From positions 1-43,799 of the IMG/VR virus record IMGVR_UViG_3300035698_003583: a stretch of DNA of 43,799 nucleotides. One strand, 5' to 3'. Below the pieces are notes generated by a model that was given only the letters and a program-made list of their open reading frames with translations, did not search any database and was not told the origin of the DNA. Position 1 is the first letter of the stretch. Each line of letters starts with the position of its first letter. This document shows, piece after piece, positions 4,426 through 42,021 of this stretch. This DNA is from a virus. A program made the position numbers and the translations under genes.

Positions 4426-4426
4426 T

Positions 4427-19200: not shown

Positions 19201-19412
19201 CAGGCGACATTAACTGGTGCATGATGTTTGCAAAATCGTTTATAGCCGGTTCTGACGCACAGACCATAATAGATATAGATGCTTATTTTGATGATCCGGG
19301 AGGTGTAGAGATTGACACATCAAATGGACAGTGGAAACTTGACTTAACTGATACTATAAATATTAGCAATGGCGGCTTAGATTCTTCTGGCGCATGGAAC
19401 ACTGAGGGATAG
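16233..19412 (+). CDS. Tail protein with calcineurin-like phosphoesterase and LamG-like domains
   Basis: This 1059-residue multidomain protein has a beta-rich N-terminal part (1-250), a LamG/concanavalin-like region (about 265-490), a linker, and a metallophosphoesterase domain (about 578-800). The phosphoesterase motifs are complete and ordered: SDLH (D585, H587), LGDVID (D621), AGNHD (N657, H658), THQC (H736) and CGHSHG (H779, H781). A second LamG-like region (about 805-1010) follows. A metal-dependent enzyme placed between sugar-binding folds in a tail-gene run suggests a host-surface depolymerase or a phosphoryl remover acting on lipopolysaccharide or capsule. The next gene follows directly (TAGATG). 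Confidence 0.7.
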   Translation: MALHDMSITIPNGNDYWEISCDGYKVRIYENSEHTDDYLGSVCDPNTPYAIWYTFGSKIVTAAGTYALAYDAGRTITIIENSIARIIISISGAYETSAQGALTNGAPSTVIFTFESDKITQYVDFNTSAAITLSTSASNGLCFMKVSTAVVERTLRERNNSECSIDGTTFISGEYNDADYIGILSTECDVIGVNRYDHNKGTVDLSQYVVFEDSLSFRWNNGTTYGGEMVCTWVFDSADRTGGKQYPGTMVVDSVDYSDPTEDTDLSFYWDCDYSGSGDQTANESDGTATITITDVGLNRYDGYDGGAYGAIESTSNSDVIKFLTASNIVISNFHIGFFYMATGFNPQSNAIGFFRHIVSTNVSSYGTGEIAFWFGRPAKGSCEFMISDNTGHVSGSGEHSVRMPPANHNMIEDEWDYIELVCYNDATPEGCMHNMGVIRNGVLIAQTSRLYDIGSWTSGAIQTYMELLGWEGDSTFGGMGAIDEFTISSNPDIRYYTPTKRLAIGKQLKDHYIKERKYIDVSSVFPLIDASITYTVLELTNGSDTATVKYRNADSESWLTPLETTIHLAYSYSGSSIKIAILSDLHIETATSANAFTAAINDMDDSTDMGDIDYVFVLGDVIDDTAADYGVGASDYRGIRGTSDIAAANWYELAGNHDVLDAEAGGSGFEDQLGYDGTKKANVYYSVELGNCRFIFISSDVDSAGYGASSTAADFLLSELDDAATDSQTAFVLTHQCRANTTRETDESITSETYPRYISGIDLYTVDTEEWAAWFCGHSHGYPAVGFPDETVVVAQESSPMYEDNLFAWWAMDEGSGGPVEKISGIKSTLGAGASWNGTTGLTFSGATTKPCDTNFKDLPLQDELTIMVQFRPDSEATDMIVSQWLNSPAGSFFIGIPTANQVQMSVQNGLTMVDDRTDKTETLAMTSATTIDLACVCTGTSLRMFARTNSGTTYELGSATALSTAANFRAVVYSIIFGNFEGGSWDFSGDINWCMMFAKSFIAGSDAQTIIDIDAYFDDPGGVEIDTSNGQWKLDLTDTINISNGGLDSSGAWNTEG

Positions 19413-22400
19413 ATGGCTTACGATCAAACCATATATTGGGACAGTATAAGGGTTTCGCCTACTGTCGTCTTTTGGGATTGGACAGATATGGAGGAGCCCA
19501 TTCTCTATATCAACACTGTCGAGAAAACACCAGGAACAGATTACCAGTTTTCGAGGTTGATGGATTATGATGCTGGGTCTGTTGATTTTACTGACACTGA
19601 AACTTTAACCGGGGGTAGCAGCGGTGCGACAGCTACAATAATTTCACACACACTTACATCTGGCACATGGGGAGGTAATGATGCGGCTGGTGTTTTATAT
19701 CTTACGGAGCAAATCGGCGAGTTTGTTGATGGAGAAGCTGTAACGGGTAGTTCGACAGGGGTTGCAGTCGTAGACGGCACTCAAAGAATAGTGATATCAC
19801 AGGCGGGGGATGTTACGAGTTCTACTGTGTGGCAGCTTGTAAATAGTGGCGCAAGCATTAGTCCAAGTATATCGTCGTCTATATCAGCAAGTATTAGTTT
19901 AAGTCCATCAGCAAGTCAGTCACCTTCATCATCGATCTCAGCAAGTATATCCAGCTCAATTAGCTCAAGTATTTCGTCAAGCCAATCTCCAAGTAGTTCT
20001 ATATCTGCTTCTATTAGTGCAAGTATATCCGGTTCGGCTTCACCTTCACAATCGCCCAGCGCATCTATTTCAGCAAGTATATCCGGTTCGATTAGCGCAA
20101 GCGTTTCACCCTCGTCATCTATTAGTGCAAGTATATCCGGTTCGGCTTCACCTTCAATATCTCCGAGTAGTTCTGAAAGTCCGAGTATATCTGCATCTAT
20201 TTCATCAAGTATATCAAGTTCTATATCCTCAAGTCAGAGTCCAAGTAGTTCTATCTCAGCGAGTTCATCGTCGAGTATAAGTTTAAGCCCGAGTAGTTCA
20301 ATAAGCTCAAGTCAATCGCCGAGTAGTTCAGAATCAAGTAGTATATCACTAAGCCCTTCATCTTCACCAAGTAGCTCTATATCATTGAGTGGGTCATCAA
20401 GTATATCACTAAGCCCATCAAGTTCTATCAGCGCGAGTCTTAGTAGTTCAATAAGCTCAAGTCAATCGCCGAGTAGTTCAGAATCAGCATCAATTAGTAG
20501 TTCTATATCACTAAGTCCAAGCGCGAGCCAATCTCCATCGTCAAGTATATCCAGTTCTATATCGTCAAGTACAAGCGAGAGCGGTTCACCAAGTATATCT
20601 GCATCTATATCAGCAAGTCAATCTCCGAGTAGTTCTATATCGGCGAGTATATCCGCTTCAATTAGTTTAAGTATATCAAGTTCTATATCAGCCAGTCAAA
20701 GTCCATCAAGTTCAATTAGCGCAAGTGTTTCTCCCAGTAGTTCAATATCACTGAGTGAAAGCCTGAGTATATCGCCTTCATTGTCTCCAAGCGTAAGTCC
20801 TTCAAGTTCAATATCGGCATCTATTAGCTCAAGTGTATCTCCAAGCCAATCGCCCAGTAGTTCTATTAGTGCGAGTATATCTGTTTCTATAAGCTCAAGT
20901 GTATCGTCCTCAATCAGTGCAAGTATTTCAAGTTCTATTTCAACATCTATATCTGCAAGTATATCTTCTTCAATAAGCGCAAGTGAGTCACCATCAAGTT
21001 CTATATCAGCAAGTATATCAAGTTCTATATCAGCAAGTGAGTCGCCTTCAAGTTCTATAAGTGCAAGTATATCATTGAGCGTTTCAGCTTCTATATCTGC
21101 ATCTGAATCTCCCAGTAGTTCTATAAGTTTAAGCCCATCGGCTTCTATATCTGCAAGTCAATCGCCATCATCGTCGTTAAGCGCATCTATCTCATCAAGT
21201 GTATCTGAAAGCGTATCGCCCAGTAGTTCAATATCATCAAGTATATCAAGTTCAATTTCAAGTTCAATATCGACAAGCATTAGTTCAAGTCAATCACCAA
21301 GTAGTTCAATATCTGCAAGCGTGTCAAGTTCAATAAGTGCAAGTGTTTCGCCAAGTAGTTCTATTAGTGCAAGTATATCAGGGTCTATCAGTGCGTCACA
21401 GAGTCCTTCAAGTTCGGTTTCATCGTCAATTAGCTCGAGTATATCTGCATCGCAGTCGCCTTCAAGTTCTATAAGTGCATCTATTTCATCAAGTATATCA
21501 AGTTCTATATCCTCAAGTCAGAGTCCAAGTAGTTCTATCTCAGCGAGTTCATCGTCGAGTGTGTCCGAGAGTGGTTCACCCAGCGCAAGCATCTCAGCAA
21601 GTCAATCGCAAACACCAAGCGCAAGTGTATCGCCAAGCGTTTCATCAAGTCAGTCACCTTCAGCGTCTGTCAGTTCAAGCCAATCAGCAACGGTATCTGC
21701 ATCTGTTTCGCCAAGTATATCACCCAGTATATCTGGTTCTGTATCCGCATCTATAAGTGCCAGTATATCCGGTTCTGTATCGAGTTCTATATCGCCAAGT
21801 GTTTCGTCAAGTATATCGGCATCAATTAGTGCCAGTATATCAAGTTCTATAAGTGCAAGTGTTTCACCGAGCGAGTCACCTTCAAGTTCAATAAGCGCAA
21901 GCCAATCACAGACACCATCGTCAAGTATATCACTAAGCTCATCGGCATCACAGTCGCCAAGTAGTTCTATATCGAGTAGTCCAAGCCCTGAAACAGCCGA
22001 GGGATTAAAGGGTGAACGTGGGGAGAACCTGCTGGACAGCCTTGACGAAATACTTCTTGATGAGTTCGGGTCATCTACTCCAAGCCCATCGTCTTCAATA
22101 TCAGCAAGTATATCAGCAAGTATATCAGCAAGTATATCAGCAAGTATATCAGCAAGTATATCAGCAAGTATATCAGCAAGTATATCATCGAGTATATCAT
22201 TATCTGTTTCGCCAAGTATATCAGCCAGTATATCATCTTCTGTATCGGCGAGTGAATCTCCTTCAAGTTCTATATCAGCAAGTATAAGCGCGAGTATATC
22301 GCCAAGCGTTTCGCTTAGTCCATCAGCAAGTATATCAAGTTCTATATCAGCAAGCGAGTCACCTTCAAGTTCTATATCATCATCTATATCACCGAGTATA

Positions 22401-24437
22401 TCGGCTTCTATATCATCAAGTCAATCTCCATCTGCGTCTATATCAGCGAGTATAAGTTCTTCTGTATCGGGTTCGTTGTCGGCAAGTGTATCTCCGAGTA
22501 GCTCTATATCAGCATCTATCAGTTCAAGTATATCCAGTTCATTATCAGCATCTGTTTCACCAAGTATTTCATTAAGCCCATCATCTTCTATTTCAGCAAG
22601 TGTATCGGCTTCTATTTCAGCAAGTATATCTGCAAGTCAAAGTCCTTCGGCTTCTATATCACCAAGTGTATCGGCAAGTGTATCGGCTTCTATTTCAAGT
22701 TCGATATCATCAAGCGTATCCCCGAGTAGTTCGATATCAGCAAGTATAAGCGCAAGCGAGTCACCTTCAAGTTCTATATCGGCGAGTATTTCATCAAGCA
22801 TATCTGAGTCTGGCTCGCCATCGGCATCTATCAGTGCAAGTCAATCACAAACACCGAGTAGTTCTATATCATCTTCGATATCAGCGAGTGAATCTCCTTC
22901 ATCTTCTGTAAGTCCAAGTATATCGCCGAGTATATCACCCAGTATATCAAGTTCTATATCATCCAGTATATCAAGTTCTATATCATCCAGTATATCATCT
23001 TCGTTATCATCTTCAATCAGCTCAAGCGTATCACCCAGTGCTTCTATTTCATCGTCTATATCTGCAAGTATTTCTGCAAGTATTTCTGCTTCTATCAGTG
23101 CAAGTATATCATTAAGTCAATCACCCAGTGCAAGTATATCATCGAGTATTAGTGCAAGTATTTCATCTTCGGTATCGTCTTCGGTTTCACCCAGTGCATC
23201 TATATCGCCTTCGTTATCGGCAAGTGTATCATTAAGCCCATCATCTTCTATAAGCGCAAGCATTTCATCAAGTGCTTCACCTTCGTCTTCTGTCAGTTCA
23301 AGTATCAGCTCAAGTATATCGGAGAGTGTTTCACCTTCAGCGAGCATAAGTCTAAGTATATCAGCTTCGATATCGTCAAGCGTTAGTCCAAGCGCATCTA
23401 TATCAAGTTCTATATCGGCGAGTTTGTCTGCAAGTATTTCAGCAAGTGAATCGGCAAGTATATCAAGTTCTATCAGCTCGAGTATATCGGCTTCTATATC
23501 AGCAAGTGAATCTCCAAGTAGTTCAATCAGTGCATCTATTTCATCGAGTATATCTGAGTCTGGTTCACCGTCAAGTTCTATATCTTTAAGCCAATCACAA
23601 ACACCATCTGCAAGTATATCCAGTTCAGTTAGCTCGAGTATATCTGCAAGTGTATCGAGTTCAATATCAGCAAGTGTTTCACCCAGTAGTTCTATATCAG
23701 CATCTATTTCATCTTCAATCTCGGCAAGCATAAGCGCATCTGTATCGTCGAGTATTTCAAGTTCAGTATCTCCATCGGCTTCGATTTCGCCTTCAATTAG
23801 TCTTTCACCAAGTGCATCTGTATCAGCATCTATCAGCTCAAGTATATCTGCAAGCGTATCATCAAGTATATCATCCTCGCAGAGTCCAAGTGCATCTATA
23901 TCTGCAAGTGCGTCAGGTTCTATATCGTCAAGTATATCGTCAAGTATATCGGCTTCTATTTCATTGAGCGAATCTGCATCTATCAGCGCAAGTATATCAC
24001 CAAGTAGTTCTATATCGTCTTCGATATCAGCGAGTATAAGTGCAAGTATTTCAGCATCTATTTCATCGAGTGTTTCAGCATCAATATCTCCAAGTATATC
24101 GGCTTCTATCAGTGCAAGTATATCAGCATCTATATCAGCAAGTCAATCTCCGAGTAGTTCTATATCGGCGAGTATATCTTCAAGTGTTAGTCCTTCAGGC
24201 TCCATCAGCGCAAGTATATCATCAAGTCAGAGTCCAAGCGCAAGTATATCACCAAGTGTATCGCTTAGTCCATCGGCAAGTGTATCTGCATCTATATCTC
24301 TTTCAATTAGTGCGAGTATATCAAGTTCGATATCGCTAAGTGATAGTCCGAGTTTGGATATAGGTGATTCTCTTATAGGTCGACTAACAGCGGTATCAGC
24401 AACGGTTCAAACAAGTGCAGTATCAGGGAGCAGTTAG
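19413..24437 (+). CDS. Giant serine-repeat protein
   Basis: This 1674-residue protein has a 147-residue N-terminal head ([10 protein letters not shown] ... QLVNSGA) that is beta-rich and may attach to the tail. Almost 1500 residues of repeat follow, in which serine fills every other position and the rest are mostly I, A, P, V, L and [22 protein letters not shown] and similar. A non-serine island of 27 residues (21990-22070) interrupts it, and a unique C-terminal end closes it. Such a two-residue period forms an extended or beta-stacked rod and offers hundreds of O-glycosylation sites. It starts directly after the phosphoesterase protein (TAGATG). Confidence 0.75.
21990..22070 (+). other. Non-serine island inside the repeat protein
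   Basis: Twenty-seven residues ([13 protein letters not shown], then [14 protein letters not shown]) interrupt the serine repeat. They include a short collagen-like GLKGERG and an acidic amphipathic helix. It may be a hinge, a trimerisation helix or a protease site. Confidence 0.6.
22098..22181 (+). repeat. Seven perfect 12-bp tandem repeats
   Basis: ATATCAGCAAGT repeats seven times in succession and encodes seven ISAS units. It is the only perfect DNA repeat block of this length in the gene, lies just after the non-serine island and looks recently expanded. Confidence 0.85.
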
Positions 24438-24875
24438 ATGATAGTTACAACAAAAGAAATTAAGAAGAAATTAAGAGCTGAGGTTCCGGGCTTGGCTGAT
24501 ACTAAGCTGGATATGGATATTTTACTGCGTGATCCGGCTTATAAGCTGCTTTCGCTACTTACGTTTGAAAAGATTAAAGCAATGTGCAGTATGCAGGGTA
24601 TGAAATTCATACCCGATGTATTTGATTGCGATGACTATGCTCTTGTATTACGGGCGCGTTTTCGTCAACTTCAATACGATTTGATTCAGGCATATCCCCC
24701 GATGGATAAACAATACGCCTGGTTTTTTCCTGAGTGTTTAAGTGTACATGCCATACATGGTCCGCACAATACAAATATAACAATTACGGATGACTGGGTT
24801 ATCAGATATACCGAACCGCAGACAAACGAGATGACGACGAAGTTTAACGGAAAGATATATTTTATAGATGGATGA
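24438..24875 (+). CDS. Agglutinin-C/papain-like cysteine-motif protein
   Basis: This 145-residue protein has FDCDDYALVLRARF (C64), then a HAIHGPHNTN segment (H110) and ITDDWVIRYTEPQTNEM (E126). The 'CDD-[FY]-A ... H-x-x-N ... EPQ' pattern resembles the papain-like domain of fungal agglutinin C-terminal domains and phage relatives. It would be a cysteine peptidase or transferase. The gene begins two bases after the serine-repeat stop, so it is coexpressed with it. Fold inferred from motif order only. Confidence 0.45.
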   Translation: MIVTTKEIKKKLRAEVPGLADTKLDMDILLRDPAYKLLSLLTFEKIKAMCSMQGMKFIPDVFDCDDYALVLRARFRQLQYDLIQAYPPMDKQYAWFFPECLSVHAIHGPHNTNITITDDWVIRYTEPQTNEMTTKFNGKIYFIDG

Positions 24876-24886
24876 GGGAGTGTATA

Positions 24887-26008
24887 ATGAAAAGATTGAC
24901 AACAGTATTAATTATATTTGCTTTATTGTTTTTTCCGCTGGGGTGTAAAACAGAAAAGGATAAAGATGTTCGACCTATTGTTAAGATGACTGAGGAGGTT
25001 GCGTCCAATGCGCTTCAGCATGAGCTTGATCAGCTGCTCTTTCCGGACAGGGCAGTAACGCCGCTGGCTAATCTTACTCCCGAAGAACTAATGACTTTGG
25101 CAGAGCAGACACAGGCACAGATTATTACCTATACAAAAAATACAACGCCAGTAGTAACTGATCAATTGCTTGGCATGGATATTATTGTTGATCCTACTAA
25201 TTGGTCAGTAAATAGGTTTGAAATTTCTGATTTGATAACACTTATACTCGCAGATTATGGACCGGGAACAACCGCTACTCCAAGTCTTACTTTTTATAGT
25301 TCTGCCGCCATCGGGGCAGACGATGCAGATGAAGAATCTGCAAAGATTGATGTTAGGATGCCGACTACGACTGAAGACCACGAATATGGAACTATGGATC
25401 TTCAGGTGATGGAAGATGGCACGGAAGTTACTCATATTCAACTCGATGGCGTTAATGGTCGCACTGAGTTTAAAAAACCAATACTTTTCGAGGCAACATC
25501 ATCCGTTGATAAAGGGGATGCTATTAGCGACGAAATACCAAATGGAACTGATCCTGATGTTGATGCTGCTGGGGAGCAAAGCTGGGATTCAGATGATTTC
25601 TGGCTAAGACATTACGATGGATCAAATCAAAGGGCGATCGTAACAGAATATAATATTCCATTTTCGGCGGCTGAACCAGATACAATGGACGCCCGTGATT
25701 ATATGCCTTTCTTTACGAATAATACCGGCGCAGATATTGTTATACTTTCTATATATGCTATATCGGATGATGATGATGTTGATTTTAGAATTGAAGAGTA
25801 TGATGCTGACGGCTCAAGCAATGAGGTGTTGGTTAAGGCCGAGACGTGTGATACAGGAGCGGGACCGTATACGAATGATGCACAGTCTACAATTACAAAC
25901 GCAACTATAGAAGATGGCCATATACTTGTTTTTGATTTCGACGATAGTGATACTCCAGATTATTTACATTTTACAATCTGGTATAGAGTAAACGGAGATG
26001 TAGACTAA
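24887..26008 (+). CDS. Tail-fibre-like lipoprotein
   Basis: The start is the ATG at 24887 (after GAGGGAG); a longer frame adds five residues without a site. The 373-residue product has an N-terminal hydrophobic signal ending in the lipobox PLGC (C20), so it should be lipid-anchored and surface-exposed. The rest is beta-rich and aspartate- and threonine-rich, with segments typical of phage tail fibres (HIQLDGVNGRTEFKKPI; TAETCDTGAG-like loops; YLHFTIWYRVNGDVD at the end). A phage tail-like domain on a bacterial lipoprotein signal is unusual. Confidence 0.6.
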   Translation: MKRLTTVLIIFALLFFPLGCKTEKDKDVRPIVKMTEEVASNALQHELDQLLFPDRAVTPLANLTPEELMTLAEQTQAQIITYTKNTTPVVTDQLLGMDIIVDPTNWSVNRFEISDLITLILADYGPGTTATPSLTFYSSAAIGADDADEESAKIDVRMPTTTEDHEYGTMDLQVMEDGTEVTHIQLDGVNGRTEFKKPILFEATSSVDKGDAISDEIPNGTDPDVDAAGEQSWDSDDFWLRHYDGSNQRAIVTEYNIPFSAAEPDTMDARDYMPFFTNNTGADIVILSIYAISDDDDVDFRIEEYDADGSSNEVLVKAETCDTGAGPYTNDAQSTITNATIEDGHILVFDFDDSDTPDYLHFTIWYRVNGDVD

Positions 26009-26190
26009 TGAAATTATTTATAGCATTAATATTCATGATATGTTTTTGTACACCTACGACTATTCATAGTGGGATGGTAGTTGGTAATTATTATTCAGGT
26101 GGTGGTGCCCCTGCCGCCAACCCAATGACGATAACACTCGGGGCTAATGATATAATAGGGTTAGGCACCAATGATAAAATAGTATTTTAA
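26008..26190 (+). CDS. 60-residue protein with signal peptide
   Basis: A Sec-type signal (MKLFIALIFMICFCTPTTIHSG) is followed by about 38 residues of small and polar residues (GGGAPAANPMTITLGANDIIG). The start overlaps the previous stop (TAATG). No enzyme motif is seen; it may be a small secreted or periplasmic peptide, or a minor fibre tip. Confidence 0.5.
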   Translation: MKLFIALIFMICFCTPTTIHSGMVVGNYYSGGGAPAANPMTITLGANDIIGLGTNDKIVF

Positions 26191-26204
26191 ATGGAGGGGG
26201 AAGA

Positions 26205-26777
26205 ATGAAGATGAAAAGAAAGTTATTTACATTATTAATGGGAAGTTTATTGTTGGTAGGTTTGATCGGCAATGCTTACGCAGGCTCTCTTGAAGCGGGA
26301 GCCGGAACTGACATTGAAATGAAGATGGGCGATGCTGTTGGTGCCAATAAGGTTTCGTTTCTTGATTCGGGTGATAATGAGGTTGCAAGCATCGACAGCG
26401 ATGGAAACTTATTGGCATATTCAGTTAGCGGCCCGGCACTTTTTACAACCGATGCAAGTGGTGTTATAACACTAACTGTAAATGCGGTTAATTACGGCTC
26501 TGATACAGGCAAAGCGAATATCCCAACCGGTTACTGTGACGCTGCCGCTGATGTAGGCAACTGGGTAGCTCTTGTAAGCTCTGCTGCTGATGCATACCAA
26601 ATGACATCAGATGATGAATCGAATCAGTTTATCATTGCTGCTAATGCAGCAGCATTAACCGCAAACGATGAACTTGACGTAGATGGCACGATGGTCTGCG
26701 TGATGTGTATAGCGGCTGAATTATGGAAAGTCACTGGCTACATGGGTGCTATTCCTACAGATGGGGGTGCGCCATGA
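26205..26777 (+). CDS. Secreted tail-fibre-like protein
   Basis: This 190-residue protein has a clear Sec signal (MKMKRKLFTLLMGSLLLVGLIGNAYA, cleavage after AYA). The mature part contains GANKVSFLDSGDNEVASIDSDGNLLA, a pattern common in phage fibres, and an alanine-rich second half with paired cysteines (CVMC). A strong GGAGGGGGAAG site precedes it. The gene overlaps the next by four bases. Confidence 0.55.
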   Translation: MKMKRKLFTLLMGSLLLVGLIGNAYAGSLEAGAGTDIEMKMGDAVGANKVSFLDSGDNEVASIDSDGNLLAYSVSGPALFTTDASGVITLTVNAVNYGSDTGKANIPTGYCDAAADVGNWVALVSSAADAYQMTSDDESNQFIIAANAAALTANDELDVDGTMVCVMCIAAELWKVTGYMGAIPTDGGAP

Positions 26778-27835
26778 TGAAAAAGATATTTCTGATATTA
26801 TTATTTATTGGGTTTTTATTTTCCACTTCTTATGCTTTCAATCCTTTGGTTGTTTGTTCGGGGATGCCAACTGCTGGTGGTGGTGACACAACCAAACCGA
26901 CTTTAGATTCAATATCAGCAGACGGTGATGATTGGACATTCACTTATTCTGAAAATGTAACGGCAACCGATGATGGTGATATGTGCGATACACATACAGC
27001 CACCACATCAACAGCCGGAGCATTAACCTTCACCTATCTGTCCGGGGCAAGAGGATCAGCAAGCGTTTTCCATTGTACCAGTTCTACTGCAATCGTTAAT
27101 GGGGAAACAATATCAGCCGGTGAATATACGGAAGGTACTATTGCTGATACGTCTGCTAATATACTTGACGCTATTGGCGATTGGACTGCTGATTGGACTA
27201 ATGCAACGGCTGGAACGTCTTATCTAATAGACCTTGATTTTGAGTCTGCTGGTATTGATTGGGATGCCACTCAGGGTACAGAACAAACCGCAGGAAACGT
27301 TGACGCAAACGGAGAGTGGTGTGACGCCGATACTACAGCAAACCATTTCAAGAATGGATCTCAGGGGCTTTATGCATATGGTGCCGATACGGATGTGTAT
27401 CTTGAAGAAGGTTTAGGCGGTAGCTATTCGACGTTTATTATTGATTTCTGGCTTAGAGGTTCAGACACATCAACTTCGTCCATGTTTCAATTTCGATATG
27501 CTTCTGATTATACATACTTGATTCAATTCTGGTCTGGCCATGAAATAAGAGTCAACGCTAATGGCGGTGATGCAGTGCTAACTGATCTTGTCGTTTCTAA
27601 TGACACATGGACACATGTTAGGGTTTCCATTGAGGAAGAAACAGCAGATGGGAACGATGATGGGGAAGTAAAAGTTTGGATGTCTACAAGCGACACTGAT
27701 TTCGATGGCGATGCTGCGGATTATACAGATAGTACTGTTGATACCTGTGATTTTGCGACTATAAAATTACGGTTTGTGGGGCCATATACCAGCGACACTA
27801 ATGCTTTTGATGACGTACAAGTTTGGGAGCCGTGA
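26774..27835 (+). CDS. Secreted protein with Ig-like and LamG-like domains
   Basis: The ATG ATG at 26774 overlaps the previous stop and follows GGGGGTGCGCC; a longer frame has no site. The 353-residue product has a Sec signal (MMKKIFLILLFIGF ... SYA), an Ig-like repeat with the 'TKPTLDSISADGDDWTFTYSENV' pattern of SwmB-type domains (about 45-150), and a LamG-like C-terminal domain (LDFESAGIDWDATQG ... WTHVRVSIEEE). LamG domains bind sugars or proteins. It overlaps the next start by one base. Confidence 0.6.
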   Translation: MMKKIFLILLFIGFLFSTSYAFNPLVVCSGMPTAGGGDTTKPTLDSISADGDDWTFTYSENVTATDDGDMCDTHTATTSTAGALTFTYLSGARGSASVFHCTSSTAIVNGETISAGEYTEGTIADTSANILDAIGDWTADWTNATAGTSYLIDLDFESAGIDWDATQGTEQTAGNVDANGEWCDADTTANHFKNGSQGLYAYGADTDVYLEEGLGGSYSTFIIDFWLRGSDTSTSSMFQFRYASDYTYLIQFWSGHEIRVNANGGDAVLTDLVVSNDTWTHVRVSIEEETADGNDDGEVKVWMSTSDTDFDGDAADYTDSTVDTCDFATIKLRFVGPYTSDTNAFDDVQVWEP

Positions 27836-28686
27836 TGAAATTTTTAAAGATACTACTAATATACAGCTTGACTTTATTTTTACCTCTACAAGCATTTAGT
27901 GCTACCAGAATATTCTTTGAAGATTATGAAACAACTGTTTTCTCAGAGCATTTTCTTGAAAATCAATACGGTACAAGTTATCTGGAGTATTGGAATATAT
28001 TTAAAGCTGAAATGTCGCAATCCAATACGTCTTATGCTGGTACATATTCAGCGGTAGTCGATGCCTATTCTGCCAATAATCCTCATGCCGCTATGGGTAA
28101 CGGCGCGAGAGATTACGGCAATCTATCTAATTTTGATTTGGGTGTTTTTGAAAATAGGTATTTCTATATTAGATGGTATCAGCAATGGGAAGATGGAACT
28201 TCGTATAATAGTGATGGTGGCGGAAACAAAATTATCTATATCGGCTGCGGTGGAGATTATTACTATCTCTCAAAAAAATATGACGATAATTTTGTACTCG
28301 TAATCAGGGACGCTTATGGGGGCAACAGTCTGTATGGCGACTGGTATTATGGCGCGATAGACTATGATGATGATGCATGGCACAAGATGGAGATCTACAT
28401 AGATTTTGGTTCATCTAATGAAGCATCTGATGGTTCAACATGGATTGAAATTGATGATCTTCGGGTATTTTCAGTAAGTGATTTGAATTTTAAAACGCTT
28501 CCATCACCAATAGATTGTATCTCTTCCCCCGGAAATTGTACATCTTGCTCCGGTACACAAGATGTTCGTTATGATAATTTAGAAATTTATACACTTACCG
28601 GCCCTGGAGATATTCCAGGTGAAGAAGCAACCCCAACAATCTCAGGCGCAAGCGGTGTAACAATAAGCGGGGGGGTTTTTCAATAA
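27835..28686 (+). CDS. Secreted LamG- or lyase-like beta-jelly-roll protein
   Basis: The ATG at 27835 follows TTGGGAG and overlaps the prior stop. The 283-residue product has a signal (MKFLKILLIYSLTLFLPLQAFSA) and a beta-rich body with YFYIRWYQQWEDG, NKIIYIG and WHKMEIYIDFGS. These resemble the concanavalin-like fold shared by polysaccharide lyases and LamG domains. No catalytic residue set can be assigned, so binding and enzyme activity are both possible. A cysteine pair (NCTSC) lies near the end. Confidence 0.55.
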   Translation: MKFLKILLIYSLTLFLPLQAFSATRIFFEDYETTVFSEHFLENQYGTSYLEYWNIFKAEMSQSNTSYAGTYSAVVDAYSANNPHAAMGNGARDYGNLSNFDLGVFENRYFYIRWYQQWEDGTSYNSDGGGNKIIYIGCGGDYYYLSKKYDDNFVLVIRDAYGGNSLYGDWYYGAIDYDDDAWHKMEIYIDFGSSNEASDGSTWIEIDDLRVFSVSDLNFKTLPSPIDCISSPGNCTSCSGTQDVRYDNLEIYTLTGPGDIPGEEATPTISGASGVTISGGVFQ

Positions 28687-28811
28687 TGGATAGCTTAGAC
28701 TTTGAAAAAATAAAGAGCGATGAGGAATTTAAGGATATCCTTGCTATCTTATATCACAATCATCACACAGCCGTCTGCCTGGCCAATATCAACGGGGGCC
28801 GTTTTAAATGA
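28686..28811 (+). CDS. 41-residue hypothetical protein
   Basis: A short frame opens at the TAATG junction with the previous stop and ends in an ATGA overlap with the next gene. The product is acidic at the start (SLDFEKIKSDEEF) and has LYHNHHTAVC. It may be a translation-coupling link to the glycosyltransferase gene. Function unknown. Confidence 0.45.
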   Translation: MDSLDFEKIKSDEEFKDILAILYHNHHTAVCLANINGGRFK

Positions 28812-29611
28812 TAGACAGCACAATGATAGACATAAGCATAATAATACCCGCTTGTAATGAGCAGTTTTTGCAACCGACGGTGAATGATATTCTCGCTAAG
28901 GCAAAGAGTAATATTGAGATCATAGTCTATCTCGATGAGTTCTGGCCCACTCCTCCTATAGAAGATTATCCAAGCGTTACCCTCATACATCATAGTAAAC
29001 GAATGGGTATGCGTCCGGCGATTAACTCCTGTGCAGCTATAGCGAGAGGTAAGTACTTGATGAAGCTTGATGCTCACTGCATGCTCGACGAAGGATTTGA
29101 TCAGAAACTTATGGCCGATTGTAAACCTGATTATACTCTGGTACCTATTCGCTATGAACTTGATGCCCAGCGATGGAAGCGGAAAGATAAGTATTATGAG
29201 TTTGAGCGAATTGATCCCCTGACGTTAAAAGGTAAACGCTGGCCTGAATATGCTGATAAAGTAAAGGGACAAACCCTGCCTGAGTTAATGACATTCCAAG
29301 GTTCATGTTGGTTTATGCTCCGTGATAGATTTTTGTCTCTCGGTGGTCTTGACGATGTTAATTACGGTTCGATGGGAAGAGAAGCTCAGGAGGTGTGTCT
29401 GAAGTCGTGGCTATCCGGTGGTAAGTGTATACTCGATCGTAATACTTGGTATGCCCACTGGAGCAAGCCGGGGTCATCAGCGATTAAAAATATGTCCGAG
29501 GAGAAAAAGAAATCCCAAGCGTTTGCAATTGATTTCTGGACGAATGATCGCTGGAGTAAACAAGTAAGAAGATTTTCTTGGTTGATGGAACATTTTGAGC
29601 TGGATAAATAA
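28808..29611 (+). CDS. GT2-fold glycosyltransferase, GT27-like
   Basis: This 267-residue enzyme has a GT-A fold: IDISIIIPACNEQ at the start, then the metal site KLDAHCMLDEGFD (D88-A-H90), and TFQGSCWFMLRDRF followed by GREAQEVCLKSWLSGGK (residues 190-206) and TWYAHW. The DxH metal motif and the 'x-E-x-x-x-K-x-W-x-S-GG' helix recall the polypeptide GalNAc-transferase family (GT27), which starts mucin-type O-glycosylation on serine or threonine. Donor and acceptor are not known. It begins the modification cassette. Confidence 0.7.
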   Translation: MIDSTMIDISIIIPACNEQFLQPTVNDILAKAKSNIEIIVYLDEFWPTPPIEDYPSVTLIHHSKRMGMRPAINSCAAIARGKYLMKLDAHCMLDEGFDQKLMADCKPDYTLVPIRYELDAQRWKRKDKYYEFERIDPLTLKGKRWPEYADKVKGQTLPELMTFQGSCWFMLRDRFLSLGGLDDVNYGSMGREAQEVCLKSWLSGGKCILDRNTWYAHWSKPGSSAIKNMSEEKKKSQAFAIDFWTNDRWSKQVRRFSWLMEHFELDK

Positions 29612-29749
29612 ATGAATGTACGATATGTTATAAATAGTTTAATGAAGGGGTCAAACAGACCGGTGATGACGTTTAAAACTTTTATATATAGTTAGCCCTA
29701 TGATTAGTGTTATAAACGCTTATACAGACGGAATTAAAAGGAGACGATA

Positions 29750-30373
29750 ATGGACGGAGTAAAGTACGTGACTGAAAATTATGTTCTAATGGGTGATAAA
29801 GGACAAAAGGTTTTGAAAGATATTAATCGACGAAAACTCTATACTTTATTTGCTAACCTGGGGTTTACTAAAGGGTGTGAGATCGGTGTTCAACGAGGTA
29901 GAAATGCGGCTGAGTTATTCAATCAGATACCAGGGTTAAGTCTGTATCTCGTTGAGCCGTATAAAGATCATCCCTTTGGTTGTCAATCCTGGCCGGTCGA
30001 TGTGTTTCAAAAGTATAAAGATCAGGCTCACGATAGACTGAAAGGGCGGGACGTTGAGTTTTTAGAAATGTTTAGTGAACAGGCGGTATCGCATATAGCA
30101 GATAATTCCCTTGATTTTGTTTATATCGACGGAGATCACTCATATAGATTTGCAATGATGGATATAATAATGTACGAGCGGAAAGTTCGTCCCGGTGGTA
30201 TTATATCCGGTCACGATTACGGTTATAGAAACGACAGTAGAGGTAAAAGGCCAAGGGTAACCGCAGCGGTTAATCACTTCACTGCCATACATAAAATAAA
30301 TCCTTGGTTTATAACCGACAAGAATGTTCTTGAAGATAAAGAAGGATATCCATCGTGGTTTTGGTTTAAATAA
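29750..30373 (+). CDS. Class I methyltransferase (FkbM / Methyltransf_24 type), copy 1
   Basis: This 207-residue enzyme has CEIGVQRGRNAAELF (SAM-binding motif I), SLYLVEPYKD, DNSLDFVYIDGDHSY and VRPGGIISGHDYGYR, the motif order of the Methyltransf_24 family that methylates sugar hydroxyls. It starts after AAAAGGAGACGATA. Two paralogues follow at 30375 and 32319. A role in capping glycans made by the neighbouring glycosyltransferases is inferred. Confidence 0.75.
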   Translation: MDGVKYVTENYVLMGDKGQKVLKDINRRKLYTLFANLGFTKGCEIGVQRGRNAAELFNQIPGLSLYLVEPYKDHPFGCQSWPVDVFQKYKDQAHDRLKGRDVEFLEMFSEQAVSHIADNSLDFVYIDGDHSYRFAMMDIIMYERKVRPGGIISGHDYGYRNDSRGKRPRVTAAVNHFTAIHKINPWFITDKNVLEDKEGYPSWFWFK

Positions 30374-30374
30374 T

Positions 30375-30962
30375 ATGAATAAATTAATTCAAAAAAGATT
30401 TAGCATACGCCGCAAGGGCAGTTTGCCTTTTACGAACAGAGGCGGTGATTTAAAACGTTCGGATCTGGCAGTATTATTTGCAGACTTGGGATTTACTTCC
30501 GGCGCAGAGGTTGGAGCCGCGATGGGTAAGTTTTCTGCCACACTATGTACCGCCAATAAGGATCTAAGATTGATCGCCGTCGATCCCTGGCAGGAGACTA
30601 AAGATTCACCTATTAGTGATGAACAAAATGCAAAGAATTACACTCAGGCTCAACAGAGATTAAAAGGGTTTAATATCGATTTTAAAAGAATGCAAAGCAT
30701 GGAAGCAGCTGAGTTCGTTGAAGACGAGTCATTGGATTTTGTTTACATCGATGCGTTGCATGATTTTGATTCCGTGATGAGGGATGTCATCGAGTGGAGC
30801 AAGAAGGTCAAGAAAGGTGGAATCGTTGCCGGGCATGATTATACCCATGTGGGTTATACCGGAGTAATTACTGCCGTAGATGCTTATACGATAGCGCATC
30901 ATATCACACCTTGGTATATAACAAAGGACCATCCAAATAGCTTTTTCTGGGTGAAACCATGA
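30375..30962 (+). CDS. Class I methyltransferase (FkbM / Methyltransf_24 type), copy 2
   Basis: This 195-residue paralogue has AEVGAAMGKFSATL, LIAVDPWQE, ESLDFVYIDALHDF and VKKGGIVAGHDYTHV. The ATG at 30375 is taken; an in-frame upstream reading overlaps the previous gene and lacks a site. The ribosome site is weak. It shares its four-base end overlap with the next glycosyltransferase-like gene. Confidence 0.75.
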   Translation: MNKLIQKRFSIRRKGSLPFTNRGGDLKRSDLAVLFADLGFTSGAEVGAAMGKFSATLCTANKDLRLIAVDPWQETKDSPISDEQNAKNYTQAQQRLKGFNIDFKRMQSMEAAEFVEDESLDFVYIDALHDFDSVMRDVIEWSKKVKKGGIVAGHDYTHVGYTGVITAVDAYTIAHHITPWYITKDHPNSFFWVKP

Positions 30963-31591
30963 TAACTGTTGTTTACTATACATCTAATCGTGAGAACGAA
31001 GAGTTTGAAGCGAAGATACGTCAAAGGCTACTGTCTATAATAGGAGATACTCCTTTGATTTCTGTATCACAGAAACCAATAGATTTTGGTCATAACATTT
31101 GCGTCGGCGATGTTGGTACCTCGGATGCAAATATCTATCAGCAGTTAATAATTGGTTGCGAGGCCGCTACGACTCCGCTGATAGCAACGGCTGAAGCCGA
31201 TTGTTTATATCCACCCGTGGGTTACTTTGATTTCGTACCCGATGATATGGACATGGCATATAGATACACTAATCTTTACGTACTACAGAAAGGAAGTTTT
31301 TGGCGAAAGGATTATTCACTATGTGGGCAGGTGGCAGGGAGAGAATATCTACTCAAGTGGATAAAACGTAGGTTAACAAAAGAGAGGGTAAAAGGTTGGA
31401 CGACAAAGGAATTAAGAAAGAAAGACTTTTTTCCCAAGTGGAGAAACTTTAAAACATTTTCGTCTGAGTTGCCGATTGTTAATATTAAAACAGAACAGGG
31501 CATGAGAATGACTTGCGCAACGAGTAAGGACCGTAAACGTTCGCTGCCGTATTTTGGTTCTGCGGTAGGTGTTATTGATGAATTATTTTAA
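30959..31591 (+). CDS. Glycosyltransferase-like protein (YYT...SVSQKPIDFG family), copy 1
   Basis: This 210-residue protein begins VVYYTSNREN and has SVSQKPIDFGHNICVG, NIYQQLIIGCEA and TAEADCLYPP. The E-[AH]-D-x-[LI]-Y block resembles a GT-A metal site. The same order occurs in 31597-32319 and in the broken gene at 33289-35158. The family has no name I recall. The gene overlaps the previous methyltransferase by four bases. Confidence 0.55.
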   Translation: MITVVYYTSNRENEEFEAKIRQRLLSIIGDTPLISVSQKPIDFGHNICVGDVGTSDANIYQQLIIGCEAATTPLIATAEADCLYPPVGYFDFVPDDMDMAYRYTNLYVLQKGSFWRKDYSLCGQVAGREYLLKWIKRRLTKERVKGWTTKELRKKDFFPKWRNFKTFSSELPIVNIKTEQGMRMTCATSKDRKRSLPYFGSAVGVIDELF

Positions 31592-31596
31592 ACGAT

Positions 31597-32319
31597 ATGA
31601 ATAAAACAAACTCAAAAGGCTTAGTCTACTATACTGATAATCACGGCAGTGAGAGTATATTAAATACATGTAGGCAGCAGATACAGCGTTGCGCAGATAT
31701 ATATAATCTTCCTATCGTATCAGTGTCTCAGAAACCAATAGACTTTGGACAAAATATTGTAATGAGCATCGGACGATCTAATGAATCTATATTTAAGCAG
31801 ATTTTAAAGGGTGTCGAGGAGTGCGATACGGAAATAATCTTCTTGCTCGAACATGATCTATTATATCACCCTACACATTTTAATTTCGAACCCAGCGATG
31901 ATAATACTTTTTATTACGATCACAATAGATGGGCTGTTTGCGCTGATACAGGTAAGGCAACTTTTTATTATACTAATTGTCCATCTTTGTTATGTGCGCG
32001 AAGGTCATTACTGCTTGATCATTATTCAAGATGTGTCGAGTTGATAAAAGAGCACGGGTTTGTAAAACGGAATGGATATTCACCGCCTAAAGGATTGCCA
32101 AAAAGTGAGCGAGCAGGGCTGGTCGATAATTATTTCGCACCCGGTGTAACGTTGGATATCAGACGAAGCGATGCCTGGACTCGTAGAAGGATGAACAGAT
32201 CTCAATTTAGAAATGAAAAAAGTTGTAGAGGTTGGATTGAGTCAGATAGCGTACCCGACTGGGGTGAAACAAAAGGCAGATTTAATGAATTTTTGGCCGA
32301 GATAGCGCAGGGGAATTAA
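31597..32319 (+). CDS. Glycosyltransferase-like protein (YYT...SVSQKPIDFG family), copy 2
   Basis: This 240-residue paralogue has GLVYYTDNHGSE, SVSQKPIDFGQNIVMSIG, SIFKQILKGVEEC and LLEHDLLYHP, then a longer C-terminal part (NCPSLLCARRSLL, GWIESDSVPDWGET). The E-H-D block matches copy 1 and the broken copy. Enzymatic role inferred from motif and neighbours. Confidence 0.55.
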   Translation: MNKTNSKGLVYYTDNHGSESILNTCRQQIQRCADIYNLPIVSVSQKPIDFGQNIVMSIGRSNESIFKQILKGVEECDTEIIFLLEHDLLYHPTHFNFEPSDDNTFYYDHNRWAVCADTGKATFYYTNCPSLLCARRSLLLDHYSRCVELIKEHGFVKRNGYSPPKGLPKSERAGLVDNYFAPGVTLDIRRSDAWTRRRMNRSQFRNEKSCRGWIESDSVPDWGETKGRFNEFLAEIAQGN

Positions 32320-32918
32320 TGAACTTAGCAAAACTTATACGTGATAAATTTAATTACAATGGTCCTTATATATTGCCGGCGAAGGTTAAGGGATTTAAAC
32401 GCGGTGGTCTTATTAATCTATTCGCTGAGTTTGGTTTACAGTCTGGCGCTGAGATTGGTGTCGCAGAAGGTAAGTTTTCTGAATTTATACTCAAGACAAT
32501 TCCAGGCTTACATTTACTTGGTGTAGATCCGTGGATGCCCGACGATGAAGATCAGCGCTCGTTGATAAACGGTAAACAATTAGCGGATAAACGGTTTGAT
32601 CAAGCTAATGATGTCTATGCACCGTATGAACACGCGACGATTCGCCGTGCGACAAGCATGGAGGGCGTGCGTGATGTAGAAAAAGAAAGTTTAGATTTTA
32701 TATACATCGACGGCAATCATCAATTTGATTTTGTAATGCAGGATCTTATCGAATGGGGTAGACGTGTACGGTCGGGTGGAATTATATCCGGGCATGATTA
32801 TTATCGTTTTAGACGTGCGGGCGTAGTTGATGCCGTGAATGTTTATACTCGTATGCATAACGTATCCGAGTGGTATACAACAGATGAACGAAAACCTACA
32901 TTTTTTTGGGTTAAATAA
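32319..32918 (+). CDS. Class I methyltransferase (FkbM / Methyltransf_24 type), copy 3
   Basis: This 199-residue enzyme has AEIGVAEGKFSEFI, LLGVDPWMPDD, ESLDFIYIDGNHQF and VRSGGIISGHDYYR. The ATG overlaps the stop of the previous gene by one base. It is more similar to copy 2 (GVDPW/AVDPW, F-x-x-V-M) than to copy 1. Confidence 0.75.
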   Translation: MNLAKLIRDKFNYNGPYILPAKVKGFKRGGLINLFAEFGLQSGAEIGVAEGKFSEFILKTIPGLHLLGVDPWMPDDEDQRSLINGKQLADKRFDQANDVYAPYEHATIRRATSMEGVRDVEKESLDFIYIDGNHQFDFVMQDLIEWGRRVRSGGIISGHDYYRFRRAGVVDAVNVYTRMHNVSEWYTTDERKPTFFWVK

Positions 32919-32980
32919 AAGGGCAATGATGCTATTAGCAGTTAATGAATTATTTTCAAAACAGTCAAAAGGAGACTAAA

Positions 32981-33292
32981 ATGAAAAATGAAAAAGACAG
33001 GACAGGAAGTTCACCGCTACCACAGGGAGTAAAAGATGAGTTGAAAAAGAAAGTATCATTAAAAGCAGTAATAGAAGGGGAACGAATATTGATGCCTTTC
33101 GGGGATATGCTTAATGCGCTTGTGGCGGATGAAGGAATTAAAGCTCGACGTATAGGCTGGCTGGAGCAGGGGGCACCCGAGGATTATATCACGATGAGAG
33201 GCGGTCAGCTGCATATATTCACTAAGGGTAAAATGCATACTTTTACTGTCGGCGATGGAGATATTACCAATGAAGATTGGGTTATAATATGA
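32981..33292 (+). CDS. Tad2/DUF2829-like small protein
   Basis: An AAAAGGAG site 7 bases before the ATG at 32981 sets this 103-residue protein. Residues 37-103 contain MPFGDMLNALV, KARRIGWLEQGAPEDYI, and the ending GDGDITNEDWVII. This order (F-G-x-x-L, R-x-G-W, D ... DW-x-[IV]) fits DUF2829, which includes the anti-Thoeris protein Tad2 that sponges cyclic ADP-ribose signals. The match is by pattern only. It lies inside the sugar-modification cassette with an ATGA overlap to the next gene. Confidence 0.45.
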   Translation: MKNEKDRTGSSPLPQGVKDELKKKVSLKAVIEGERILMPFGDMLNALVADEGIKARRIGWLEQGAPEDYITMRGGQLHIFTKGKMHTFTVGDGDITNEDWVII

Positions 33293-34629
33293 CTGATCTA
33301 AGTATAATAATACCTGCGCGGAACGAAGAGTTTCTGCAACGGACTATAGATGGCGTACTGTCTAATATAAAAGGTGATACCGAGATTATTGCCATACTCG
33401 ATGGTTACTGGCCTAATCCCGGCATCGTAGATCACGAAAGGCTTAAACTTATACATAATAGTGATCCGATAGGTCAGCGTGCCGCAACTAATCAAGGCGT
33501 AAGGCTGTCCACCGCTAAGTATATTATGAAGCTCGACGCTCACTGCTCAGTCGATGAAGGATTTGATATTAAGCTCATGGCTGATATGAAATACGACTGG
33601 ACGGTCATACCCCGTATGTATACCCTTCATGCATTTTCTTGGGTATGCCAGAATTGCCTTAAAAGTTATTATCAAGGGCCGGTAAAAAAAGATCCTTGTG
33701 AGAAATGCCAGTGTGTAGAATATACGAGGGAGATAGTCTGGAAGAGAAATAAACGAACCGATTATATGTGGTTTGATCGTGACCTTCGTGTTAAGTACTT
33801 CGACTCCAATGCCTTTAAAGCTTACAGCGATGATAAGTCCGCGATGAAAAAGAAATATAGTCCCCGGCATCGTACGGAGTTTCAAGGCGAGATAACCGAC
33901 GTGCTGAACGGTGTAGGTGCTTGCTGGATGCTCGATCGGGATCGCTATTGGGAACTCGGCGGGCTGGACGAACAGCACGGCTCATGGGGGCAGATGGGAG
34001 TAGAGATTGCAATGAAAGCATGGCTCTCAGGGGGTCGACATGTCGTAAATAAGAAAACTTGGTTTGCGCATCTGTTTCGTACTCAGGGTGGTGACTTTTC
34101 ATTCCCGTATAAGAACCCAGGATCGGCTCAGGAGAAGGCTCGGAAATACTCTAAGGGGTTATGGTTAGGGAATAACTGGCCGCTTCAGAAGAGGCGATTA
34201 GGGTGGCTTATTGACCGATTTGCACCGCTACCGGGATGGGATGGTTATTTCGATGATAAGCATCTGGAAAATCCTTTAGACGAAGGCAAAGAATGTATTT
34301 GCGATGAGAAAGATAAAACCGATTGTAGTAAATGTGGCATCGTAGTGCCTGAACCACTTGCGTCTGAACTTGTTGCAGATGTGAAAGCAGGTATATCCCA
34401 TATAAATGATATAGTTGTTAAATATGATTATGTTGATTTAAAAACTATACGAGAGCCAACAAAAGGCATTGTTTACTATACGAACAACAGATGTGAGGAG
34501 CGAATACTGTCTACGGTACGTCGTCATATAAAAGTTGCTGCTAATGGTCATCAAATCGTATCGGTATCACACTTTCCGATCGACTTCGGTAGAAAATATC
34601 GTAATGAAGCTGGAAAGCAGTGCACTTAG
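33289..34629 (+). CDS. Two-domain glycosyltransferase, broken by frameshift
   Basis: The ATG at 33289 overlaps the previous stop (ATGA). The first domain is GT27-like: LSIIIPARNEE, KLDAHCSVDEGFD (D83-A-H85), ACWMLDRDRYWELGGLDE, GVEIAMKAWLSGGR and KTWFAHLFR, close to the 'VGHVFR' ending of GalNAc-transferases. A CxxC pair (C120, C123; C137, C140) inserts a zinc finger. The second domain begins like the YYT family (KGIVYYTNNRCEE ... SVSHFPIDFG) but the frame is lost after G434 by one extra base near 34591. The protein then ends in an out-of-frame tail. Confidence 0.65.
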   Translation: MTDLSIIIPARNEEFLQRTIDGVLSNIKGDTEIIAILDGYWPNPGIVDHERLKLIHNSDPIGQRAATNQGVRLSTAKYIMKLDAHCSVDEGFDIKLMADMKYDWTVIPRMYTLHAFSWVCQNCLKSYYQGPVKKDPCEKCQCVEYTREIVWKRNKRTDYMWFDRDLRVKYFDSNAFKAYSDDKSAMKKKYSPRHRTEFQGEITDVLNGVGACWMLDRDRYWELGGLDEQHGSWGQMGVEIAMKAWLSGGRHVVNKKTWFAHLFRTQGGDFSFPYKNPGSAQEKARKYSKGLWLGNNWPLQKRRLGWLIDRFAPLPGWDGYFDDKHLENPLDEGKECICDEKDKTDCSKCGIVVPEPLASELVADVKAGISHINDIVVKYDYVDLKTIREPTKGIVYYTNNRCEERILSTVRRHIKVAANGHQIVSVSHFPIDFGRKYRNEAGKQCT

Positions 34630-35158
34630 TATGTTCAAGCAGATACTTATCGGTTTAAAAGCAGTAAAGGCAGATGTAGTATTTCTCGCCGAGCATGATG
34701 TAATATATCATCGTACGCATTTTGATTTCACTCCTGAGAAAGAGGATGTTTATTATTACAATGAGAATGTCTGGAAGCTTTGCGCTAAAACAGGGCAGGC
34801 AGTTTTTTATCGCATTAAACAGACAAGTGGGTTATGTGCATACCGAGAGTTATTGATCGAACATTATTCCAAACGGGTTGAACGGGTGCAACGTGAAGGG
34901 CTTACTCATCGCATGGGGCTTGACCCCGGTACACATAAGACACCACAGGGTATAGACGATTATAAAGCGCTGACATGGATGTCGAAGGGGTCAAATATAG
35001 ATATCCGTCATGGTAATAATCTTACGGCGAATCGGTTTCGTCGTGATCAATTTAGATCAAAGAGGTCAATTAAGGGGTGGACACTCGCGGATAAAATTCC
35101 GGGGTGGGGAAAGACTAAAGATAGATTTGATAATTTTATTTTCGATCTTGGTAGTTAA
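34604..35158 (+). CDS. Second half of the broken YYT-family domain
   Basis: The +1 frame from 34592 reads ENIVMKLESSALSMFKQIL, matching QNIVMSIG ... SIFKQIL of the paralogue, and continues through AEHDVIYHR to a complete C-terminal end (GWTLADKIPGWGKT). Internal ATG 34604 has no clear ribosome site. It may therefore be a mutation, a sequencing error, or a +1 frameshift product joined to 33289-34629. Confidence 0.5.
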   Translation: MKLESSALSMFKQILIGLKAVKADVVFLAEHDVIYHRTHFDFTPEKEDVYYYNENVWKLCAKTGQAVFYRIKQTSGLCAYRELLIEHYSKRVERVQREGLTHRMGLDPGTHKTPQGIDDYKALTWMSKGSNIDIRHGNNLTANRFRRDQFRSKRSIKGWTLADKIPGWGKTKDRFDNFIFDLGS

Positions 35159-36870: not shown

Positions 36871-37670
36871 TGTTTAATCTCCAAACACAGCGAGCGCGGT
36901 TTTTGCACCAGGTTATATTCCTACGCCTGGCTTCGCAGTTTGCAACCAGTCATGCCCGTACGTGGTATCCGACGCTGCATAAGGCGTATATGTCTGCTGC
37001 TCGTCAGATAGAACACAGCGATACCGACTTTGAACATATTATACAACAACAGAAGAAAGAAATATTGATCGTCATGGATAAAACGCTACGACCAGTGCTA
37101 TCCTTTTTCGGTACGACGGCACTTACTCGGTTTAAAGAATCACAGAAGAAAAATGTAGTTGCGTTTGAAACCAAGGGCATGGAGGATGTATATTGGCAGA
37201 GGGTTACTCAGTGGGCGCAGCGGCATGCGGCTCGACGGGTTGTTGATATATCAGATACTACGAGAACGATGTTAAAGTTAGAACTTCAACGCGGTATGCG
37301 TGAAGGGTTGTCAAATAATGATATCGCAAAAACTATTGTTGCACGAGATCAGACGATTAATAAAGTACGCGCGATAAGAATAGCCAGGACTGAGACACAT
37401 ACGGCAGCAAATGAAGCGACGAATGAAGCGGTAAAGAGTACAGGTTATAGACATGAACGTGTATGGGTATCAGCCCGCGATGAACGCGTAAGAGGGTTTG
37501 ATCCCCTTGATAGATATGACCATAAAGAAGTTAATGGCCAAGTGCGCGATATGGACACACCGTTTGATGTCAGTCGTGAGAAGTTGGACTATCCCGGTGA
37601 TCCAAAAGGTAGTGCTGGTAACGTGATTAATTGCCGTTGCGTACTTGTATATAATACGATAGGAAGATAA
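36870..37670 (+). CDS. Head morphogenesis protein (SPP1 gp7 / Mu F-like)
   Basis: This 266-residue protein starts at a GTG sharing a base with the portal stop (TAGTG), after AAGGA. The C-terminal part has RIARTETHTAANEATNEA, W-x-SARDERVR, KEVNGQ and AGNVINCRCVLVY, which define the SPP1 gp7/Mu gpF family. A few copies act inside the prohead, at portal-capsid assembly or DNA ejection. Confidence 0.85.
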   Translation: MFNLQTQRARFLHQVIFLRLASQFATSHARTWYPTLHKAYMSAARQIEHSDTDFEHIIQQQKKEILIVMDKTLRPVLSFFGTTALTRFKESQKKNVVAFETKGMEDVYWQRVTQWAQRHAARRVVDISDTTRTMLKLELQRGMREGLSNNDIAKTIVARDQTINKVRAIRIARTETHTAANEATNEAVKSTGYRHERVWVSARDERVRGFDPLDRYDHKEVNGQVRDMDTPFDVSREKLDYPGDPKGSAGNVINCRCVLVYNTIGR

Positions 37671-37694
37671 TGAATAAACAACAAGGAGGAAATA

Positions 37695-38465: not shown

Positions 38466-38488
38466 CATTTTATTATAAGGAGTAAAAA

Positions 38489-39976: not shown

Positions 39977-40022
39977 TTGTTTAGGTAGTTTTTTTTAAAC
40001 ATAGTAAATGGAGGAAAAAAAG

Positions 40023-40532: not shown

Positions 40533-40550
40533 CCTTAACGATCTTCTAAG

Positions 40551-40620: not shown

Positions 40621-40651
40621 ATTTCAATCTTAATAACGGAAGAGGTATAAA

Positions 40652-41167: not shown

Positions 41168-41197
41168 TAGACAACAGTTATAGGGAGGAGGTATAAA

Positions 41198-41689: not shown

Positions 41690-41719
41690 TAAAATAGTTA
41701 CAAGGAAGGAGGGTAATAA

Positions 41720-42019: not shown

Positions 42020-42021
42020 TT

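Follow-up and report, generated by a model that had tools for sequence, protein, structure and literature searches.

Does a phage that carries a protein built largely of alternating serines also carry the enzymes that would glycosylate it, and is the product a part of its particle? The question is raised by the window, the whole 43.8 kb stretch of an IMG/VR virus record analysed here, for which a preliminary description had proposed that the phage builds a glycosylated surface rod or fibre with its own enzymes. We consider it probable that the Ser-repeat protein is borne on the phage virion and glycosylated by phage-encoded enzymes, and that this kit is shared and exchanged with Patescibacteria. 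In the following, we examine the Ser-repeat protein, the enzymes, their linkage in other phages and their bacterial counterpart.

A serine-repeat gene within a phage structural cluster

In the window, the terminase subunits, the large one (TerL) second, are followed by a block of about 20 kb and then by portal and head genes. The Ser-repeat gene and the enzymes sit inside this structural gene cluster, between TerL and portal, on one strand. The features around the enzymes are:

12651..14991, + strand: terminase small subunit (Terminase_2) and large subunit, bounding the structural region on the left
16233..19412, + strand: 1059-aa protein with a Metallophos domain (PF00149), directly upstream of the Ser gene; candidate virion protein
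19413..24437, + strand: Ser-repeat (S-X)n protein of 1674 aa; S-X tract at residues 148-1647, preceded by a non-repetitive part (1-147) and followed by a short non-repetitive C-terminus
24887..28686, + strand: four consecutive ORFs with Sec-type signal peptides, at 24887 (lipoprotein-like), 26205, 26768 and 27835, amid the phage structural region
35536..43103, + strand: portal, head morphogenesis, protease, major capsid protein, head-tail adaptor and head closure; right edge

Because portal, head morphogenesis, protease, capsid and head-tail genes form the right edge of this region, the window is a tailed phage. The Ser gene lies 4.4 kb from the first glycosyltransferase (GT), with five ORFs (24438-28686) between them; four of the five carry a Sec-type signal peptide, and no relatives of these four were found in the fetched loci. 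The protein directly upstream of the Ser gene has a calcineurin-like phosphoesterase domain amid fibre-like sequence and one distant relative (in L007); its place in the cassette is uncertain. Elsewhere in the window (8069-8692, - strand), 18-bp tandem repeats (8272-8553) code for a YdcK-type beta-solenoid that is weakly bactofilin-like.

Serine makes up 890 of the 1674 residues encoded by the Ser gene. Between residues 148 and 1647, the S-X alternation is exact in seven runs of 585, 23, 71, 23, 255, 247 and 249 residues, parted by brief shifts of phase and by an island without the repeat at about residues 859-890; apart from these interruptions, the preliminary description was right in placing Ser at every second position over about 1500 residues. 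The longest strict run reaches 585-586 residues, against at most 42 in the shuffled tract (500 trials). Some local duplication is present in the DNA of the tract. Since all six codons are in use for the periodic Ser and about 54% of the steps from one of these Ser to the next pass from AGY to TCN or back (159/292, longest run), the coding pattern indicates that the periodicity is held at the protein level and is not simple DNA repeat growth. Inspection of the N- and C-terminus found neither a signal peptide nor a cell-wall anchor. The X positions are richer in Ile than in viral Ser proteins overall, and the N-terminus has three weak relatives among viral contigs, none of them with the repeat.

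Enzymes with a GalNAc-transferase-like fold

Downstream of the signal-peptide ORFs, the cassette comprises two related GTs, the U family and three methyltransferases:

28808..29611, + strand: GT27-like glycosyltransferase 1; DAH metal motif, conserved Glu and His; AlphaFold2 pLDDT 94.4
29750..30373, + strand: Methyltransf_24 methyltransferase 1
30324..30962, + strand: Methyltransf_24 methyltransferase 2; the family domain starts at about 30387
30959..31591, + strand: U family, divergent member, putative GT-A glycosyltransferase
31597..32319, + strand: U family, putative GT-A glycosyltransferase; EHD motif; AlphaFold2 pLDDT 96.4
32319..32918, + strand: Methyltransf_24 methyltransferase 3
33289..34629 (ORF 33277-34629), + strand: GT27-like glycosyltransferase 2 (GTz); CxxC zinc-ribbon-like insert; a U domain starts in its 3' end, which covers about the first 47 positions of that domain
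34535..35158, + strand: continuation of that U domain after a change of frame near 34590-34600

The ORFs at 28808 and 33289 belong to one family with a Pfam match to GT2, and D88 and H90 (D88-x-H90), E195 and H217 are invariant in its 56-row alignment. Compared with the PDB, the family profile matches the polypeptide GalNAc-transferases (GT27) over its whole length (E 1.6e-12), and the alignment pairs the phage DxH and C-terminal His with the DAHC and VGHVFR of the GalNAc-Ts. The structure comparison that the preliminary description had proposed as a check was run on the AlphaFold2 model of the first GT, which matches GalNAc-transferases along the full catalytic domain; the best 50 PDB fold matches by Foldseek are all GalNAc-Ts (E 3.9e-16, TM to 0.83). 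The earlier claim of two GT27-like enzymes is thus borne out for fold and motifs. In this sense the label is right; in the strict sense the enzymes may or may not be GT27 members, and donor and acceptor are predicted. Among viral proteins, BFVD A0A516LS96 matches the fold of the GT much more closely than any other (E 6.6e-20, TM 0.80, 23% identity); it is possibly a relative that has a database record.

The phage GTs have in common with the GT27 GalNAc-transferases of animals and Toxoplasma the GT-A fold over the whole domain, the DxH motif and the C-terminal Glu and His. They differ in that phage and bacterial GTs reach about 20% identity to GT27 or less, and in that the second copy holds the zinc-ribbon-like insert. 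The first GT, of 267 aa, ends with the catalytic domain, and both the ricin-type lectin domain and the N-terminal membrane anchor are absent; no hydrophobic segment was found in it, nor a membrane segment in the cassette enzymes. Animal GT27 enzymes start mucin glycosylation, and the GalNAc-T fold family has a known preference for Ser/Thr peptides; GT2/GT27-type enzymes can also use other acceptors.

The U family (30959, 31597, 34535) has no Pfam match. By Foldseek, the AlphaFold2 model of its member at 31597 is a GT-A fold (E about 1e-5, TM 0.45-0.55), with matches that include AvpGT, the PBCV-1 capsid glycosyltransferase 2p6w and GalNAc-T1. The second GT and a U domain are fused into a single ORF in most relatives, and in the window they occupy two frames; sequencing error, a programmed shift and decay are all candidate sources of the frame change. 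Of the three more GT-like genes listed earlier on the same strand, the U family is therefore retained with a predicted GT-A fold, and the frame at 34535 is not an independent gene, its domain starting within the GT ORF. The three methyltransferases described as sugar-type are present, all of them Methyltransf_24; a PDB search with their sequence gave no match, and action on a sugar is plausible.

Linkage in other phages and nature of the serine proteins

A search with the GT yielded 79 viral loci, of which 63 contain an S-X protein (counted if at least 60 residues lie in strict runs), 61 a methyltransferase and 59 a U family member. In the control, 53 loci found with the TerL of the window, the GT and the S-X protein are each present in 0/53, and the difference in S-X proteins gives a Fisher value of 7e-23 for flanks of at most 10 kb, with many contigs short. 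After dereplication, the S-X protein remains in 58/73 GT loci. Conservation of the pair in other phages was the second check set beforehand, and these counts bear it out.

The arrangement is also regular. All 93 viral S-X genes lie on the GT strand, and 52 of the 93 lie within 300 bp of a cassette gene (permuted mean 9.7, maximum 19); the genes usually follow one another as [Ser]-GT-M...-GTz-U-[Ser], GTz denoting the GT that carries the zinc-ribbon-like insert. In the reverse direction, a census by the DNA pattern of S-X tracts, made without the GT, found the GT in 12/55 Ser loci and in 1/184 others (P 9e-8); a TCN-only pattern caught mostly short unrelated tracts. A long Ser tract is absent in about a fifth of the GT loci, most of them short contigs, and most loci with weaker Ser tracts are without a GT of this family. 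Few GT loci have the head genes of the window. Because GT and S-X protein are missing from all of the TerL relatives, the gene set is patchy and moves between phages. By tblastn, the GT, the U proteins and the N-terminus of the Ser protein had no match in 50,697 phage records, and a relative of the GT, used as the query, had none in plasmids. Two further viral contigs were noted in passing. L143 has an open frame of more than 2100 aa (3-6389, - strand) that is 82% Ser, and the stretch fetched from it contains no member of this GT family; L139, a contig of 548 kb, codes for three S-X repeat proteins side by side, likewise with no such GT nearby.

The non-repeat parts of the viral Ser proteins are modular, lectin-like domains included. 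Pfam places laminin-G, glycine-rich, CBM96 and other domains in them, and in PHROGs they match virion structural, tail-fibre assembly, minor tail, and baseplate hub and wedge families. A signal-peptide-like N-terminus occurs in 2/91, and the commonest residues at the X positions are Pro (35%), Ala (15%), Val (12%) and Glu (10%). With virion-type domains, few signal peptides and Pro-rich X positions, the proteins fit mucin-like stalks of virion proteins, as far as can be read from sequence.

If the stalk is on the virion, it could still be an unmodified spacer, with the enzymes acting on another virion protein such as the capsid. The PBCV-1 capsid is glycosylated by a GT-A enzyme (2p6w), and S-X tracts occur in viral contigs whose fetched stretch is without this GT family. 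However, the enrichment holds in both directions and is accompanied by adjacency, the GalNAc-T-like fold belongs to a family that prefers Ser/Thr peptides, and where this GT is missing, other GTs may be present or the locus is cut by a contig end. We regard an unmodified stalk as distinctly improbable, and glycosylation of the Ser repeat itself as the better account.

Virus-encoded enzymes that act on virion proteins are known from other systems. Mycobacteriophages encode glycosyltransferases, and virion glycosylation has been suggested, e.g., for Maravista (PMC11256854). The present system would resemble these phages and PBCV-1 (2p6w) in this respect; their target is a capsid or tail protein, whereas here the enzymes are accompanied by a dedicated Ser-repeat rod protein. 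In 2025, a study of phages of Patescibacteriota read laminin-G/concanavalin-like and nucleotide-sugar genes as host-adhesion aids (PMC12911398). Its surface-adhesion 'auxiliary metabolic genes' possibly belong to the same kind of phages or hosts. In our loci, such adhesion-aid domains lie on Ser-repeat proteins amid structural genes, which suggests that some adhesion genes of this type are virion parts.

The Patescibacteria counterpart and a proposed glycosylation route

A single scan of a genome collection found 64 loci, mostly in Patescibacteria, in which this cassette again occurs together with S-X proteins. One complete Woesebacteria chromosome has the cassette surrounded by groEL, a valyl-tRNA-synthetase-like gene and further housekeeping genes; it ends in Ser genes followed by TatC, and no phage genes were seen around it. 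Twelve genomes, chosen by the length of their contigs before Tat was noticed, were tested for portal and Tat. A phage portal was not found in 11 of the 12, all eleven small, and the twelfth is a 5.1 Mb FCB MAG. For the genomes tested, the absence of a portal from these eleven and the housekeeping flanks in the complete chromosome led us to reject prophages as the source of the Patescibacteria copies. Two of the eleven, L402 and L404, may be phage contigs binned with MAGs and are excluded from the Tat count. In nine Patescibacteria genomes (L421, L415, L388, L413, L429 and L444-L447), the sole TatC is part of the cassette, near it or next to a Ser gene, in one of them on a separate contig where it adjoins a Ser gene; in L444, the Ser gene, TatA and TatC are consecutive. 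TatC is present in 12/116 sampled genomes of the phylum (~10%) and was found in none of the viral GT loci. Signal peptides on the bacterial Ser proteins were considered as an explanation of the Tat link and were not seen (0/31); small RR-motif proteins lie near TatC in two genomes only. The gene neighbourhoods thus indicate that Patescibacteria, too, have the gene set as a resident system, near Tat translocase genes, a point absent from the preliminary description.

In a tree of 247 GT domains, viral and bacterial rows are intermixed, and the well-supported branches require at least 23 changes of label; the first GT of the window falls in an all-viral clade of 12. The tree points to repeated exchange of the GT between phages and bacteria, although the count is rough and MAG binning may misplace phage contigs; the Woesebacteria chromosome and the Tat linkage hold independently of binning. 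From the same tree, we infer Patescibacteria as the host of these phages. It might be asked whether the cassettes are cellular genes in contigs miscalled as viral, with no phage system behind them, given that the cassette is resident in Patescibacteria chromosomes and that an IMG/VR contig (L059) has the gene map of L402, a Patescibacteria MAG contig. This is hardly credible: TerL, portal, protease, capsid and head-tail genes surround the cassette of the window on one strand, the 148 genes flanking viral cassettes include terminases, portals, capsids and tape measures, and TatC marks the bacterial loci and not the viral ones.

A more serious alternative is that the enzymes decorate host surface glycans or glycoproteins, for superinfection exclusion or host mimicry, and that the Ser protein is an unrelated neighbour or a cell-surface substrate. 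The four signal-peptide ORFs between Ser gene and GTs, the residence of the same kit in Patescibacteria and the cell-surface modification genes described in phages of Patescibacteria (PMC12911398) are in its favour. We nevertheless think it unlikely, as the GT-Ser linkage holds across many unrelated phages, the Ser proteins have domains of virion type and lack a signal peptide, and the enzymes have no membrane segment. The missing signal peptide is weak evidence for a virion location, because the Ser proteins of the bacterial hosts also lack one; the domains and the soluble enzymes support a virion target over lipopolysaccharide, the other target considered earlier.

The closest described analogy is that of the serine-rich repeat proteins (SRRPs) of gram-positive bacteria (PMC7948813, PMC6973325), and it is close in logic, not in parts. 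Fap1, GspB, SraP and PsrP likewise combine long (S-X)n tracts with co-encoded glycosyltransferases, and the Patescibacteria version resembles them in having a linked protein translocase too. Whereas SRRPs use a GtfA/GtfB pair, the present system has GT27-like and new GT-A enzymes, and no such initiating pair is among the GTs of the window, which give GT2-type matches only. SRRPs have a signal peptide and a cell-wall anchor, and the present Ser proteins have neither. No accessory Sec (SecA2/SecY2) is among the matches listed for the 25 commonest Pfam families of flanking genes; unlike in SRRPs, Tat genes adjoin the Patescibacteria copies and virion domains are carried by the phage Ser proteins. 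The open-access literature (subscription journals were largely outside the scope) yielded no description of a phage GT27 or a phage serine-repeat glycoprotein.

For a virion-borne, phage-glycosylated Ser-repeat protein, we propose the following route. In the cytoplasm of the infected cell, one or both GT27-like enzymes would add the first sugar to Ser of the (S-X)n stalk; the U-family GT-A enzymes would lengthen it, and the Methyltransf_24 enzymes would cap it by O-methylation. The glycosylated rod would then join the particle through its non-repeat head and leave the cell by lysis, and would therefore need no signal peptide. The kit would be shared with Patescibacteria or taken from them, in repeated exchange; in these bacteria it probably serves to make surface glycoproteins that are tied to a Tat translocase. 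More tentatively, and with somewhat less than even confidence, we suggest a previously undescribed prokaryotic mucin-type system, in which Patescibacteria export glycosylated (S-X)n rods by a dedicated Tat as a coat or adhesin and their phages use the same GT27-like, GT-A and methyltransferase enzymes to coat virions with a host-like glycoprotein. Spacing, protease resistance, adsorption and mimicry of the Patescibacteria surface are open candidates for the role of the coat. The phage-built rod of the preliminary description is thus supported in part, by the enzyme folds, the conserved pair and the virion-type target; the antibody shielding and mucus binding also suggested for it found no support in this analysis.

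If this is true, mucin-like Ser/Thr glycosylation by GalNAc-transferase-like enzymes extends to phages and Patescibacteria, a vast group, for the most part uncultured, about whose surface and attachment chemistry little is known. The gene set is common to dozens of unrelated phages and to tiny Patescibacteria and is not a one-off. It would offer small soluble GalNAc-T-like enzymes with an obvious candidate peptide acceptor, as well as a concrete handle on the interaction between phages and Patescibacteria.
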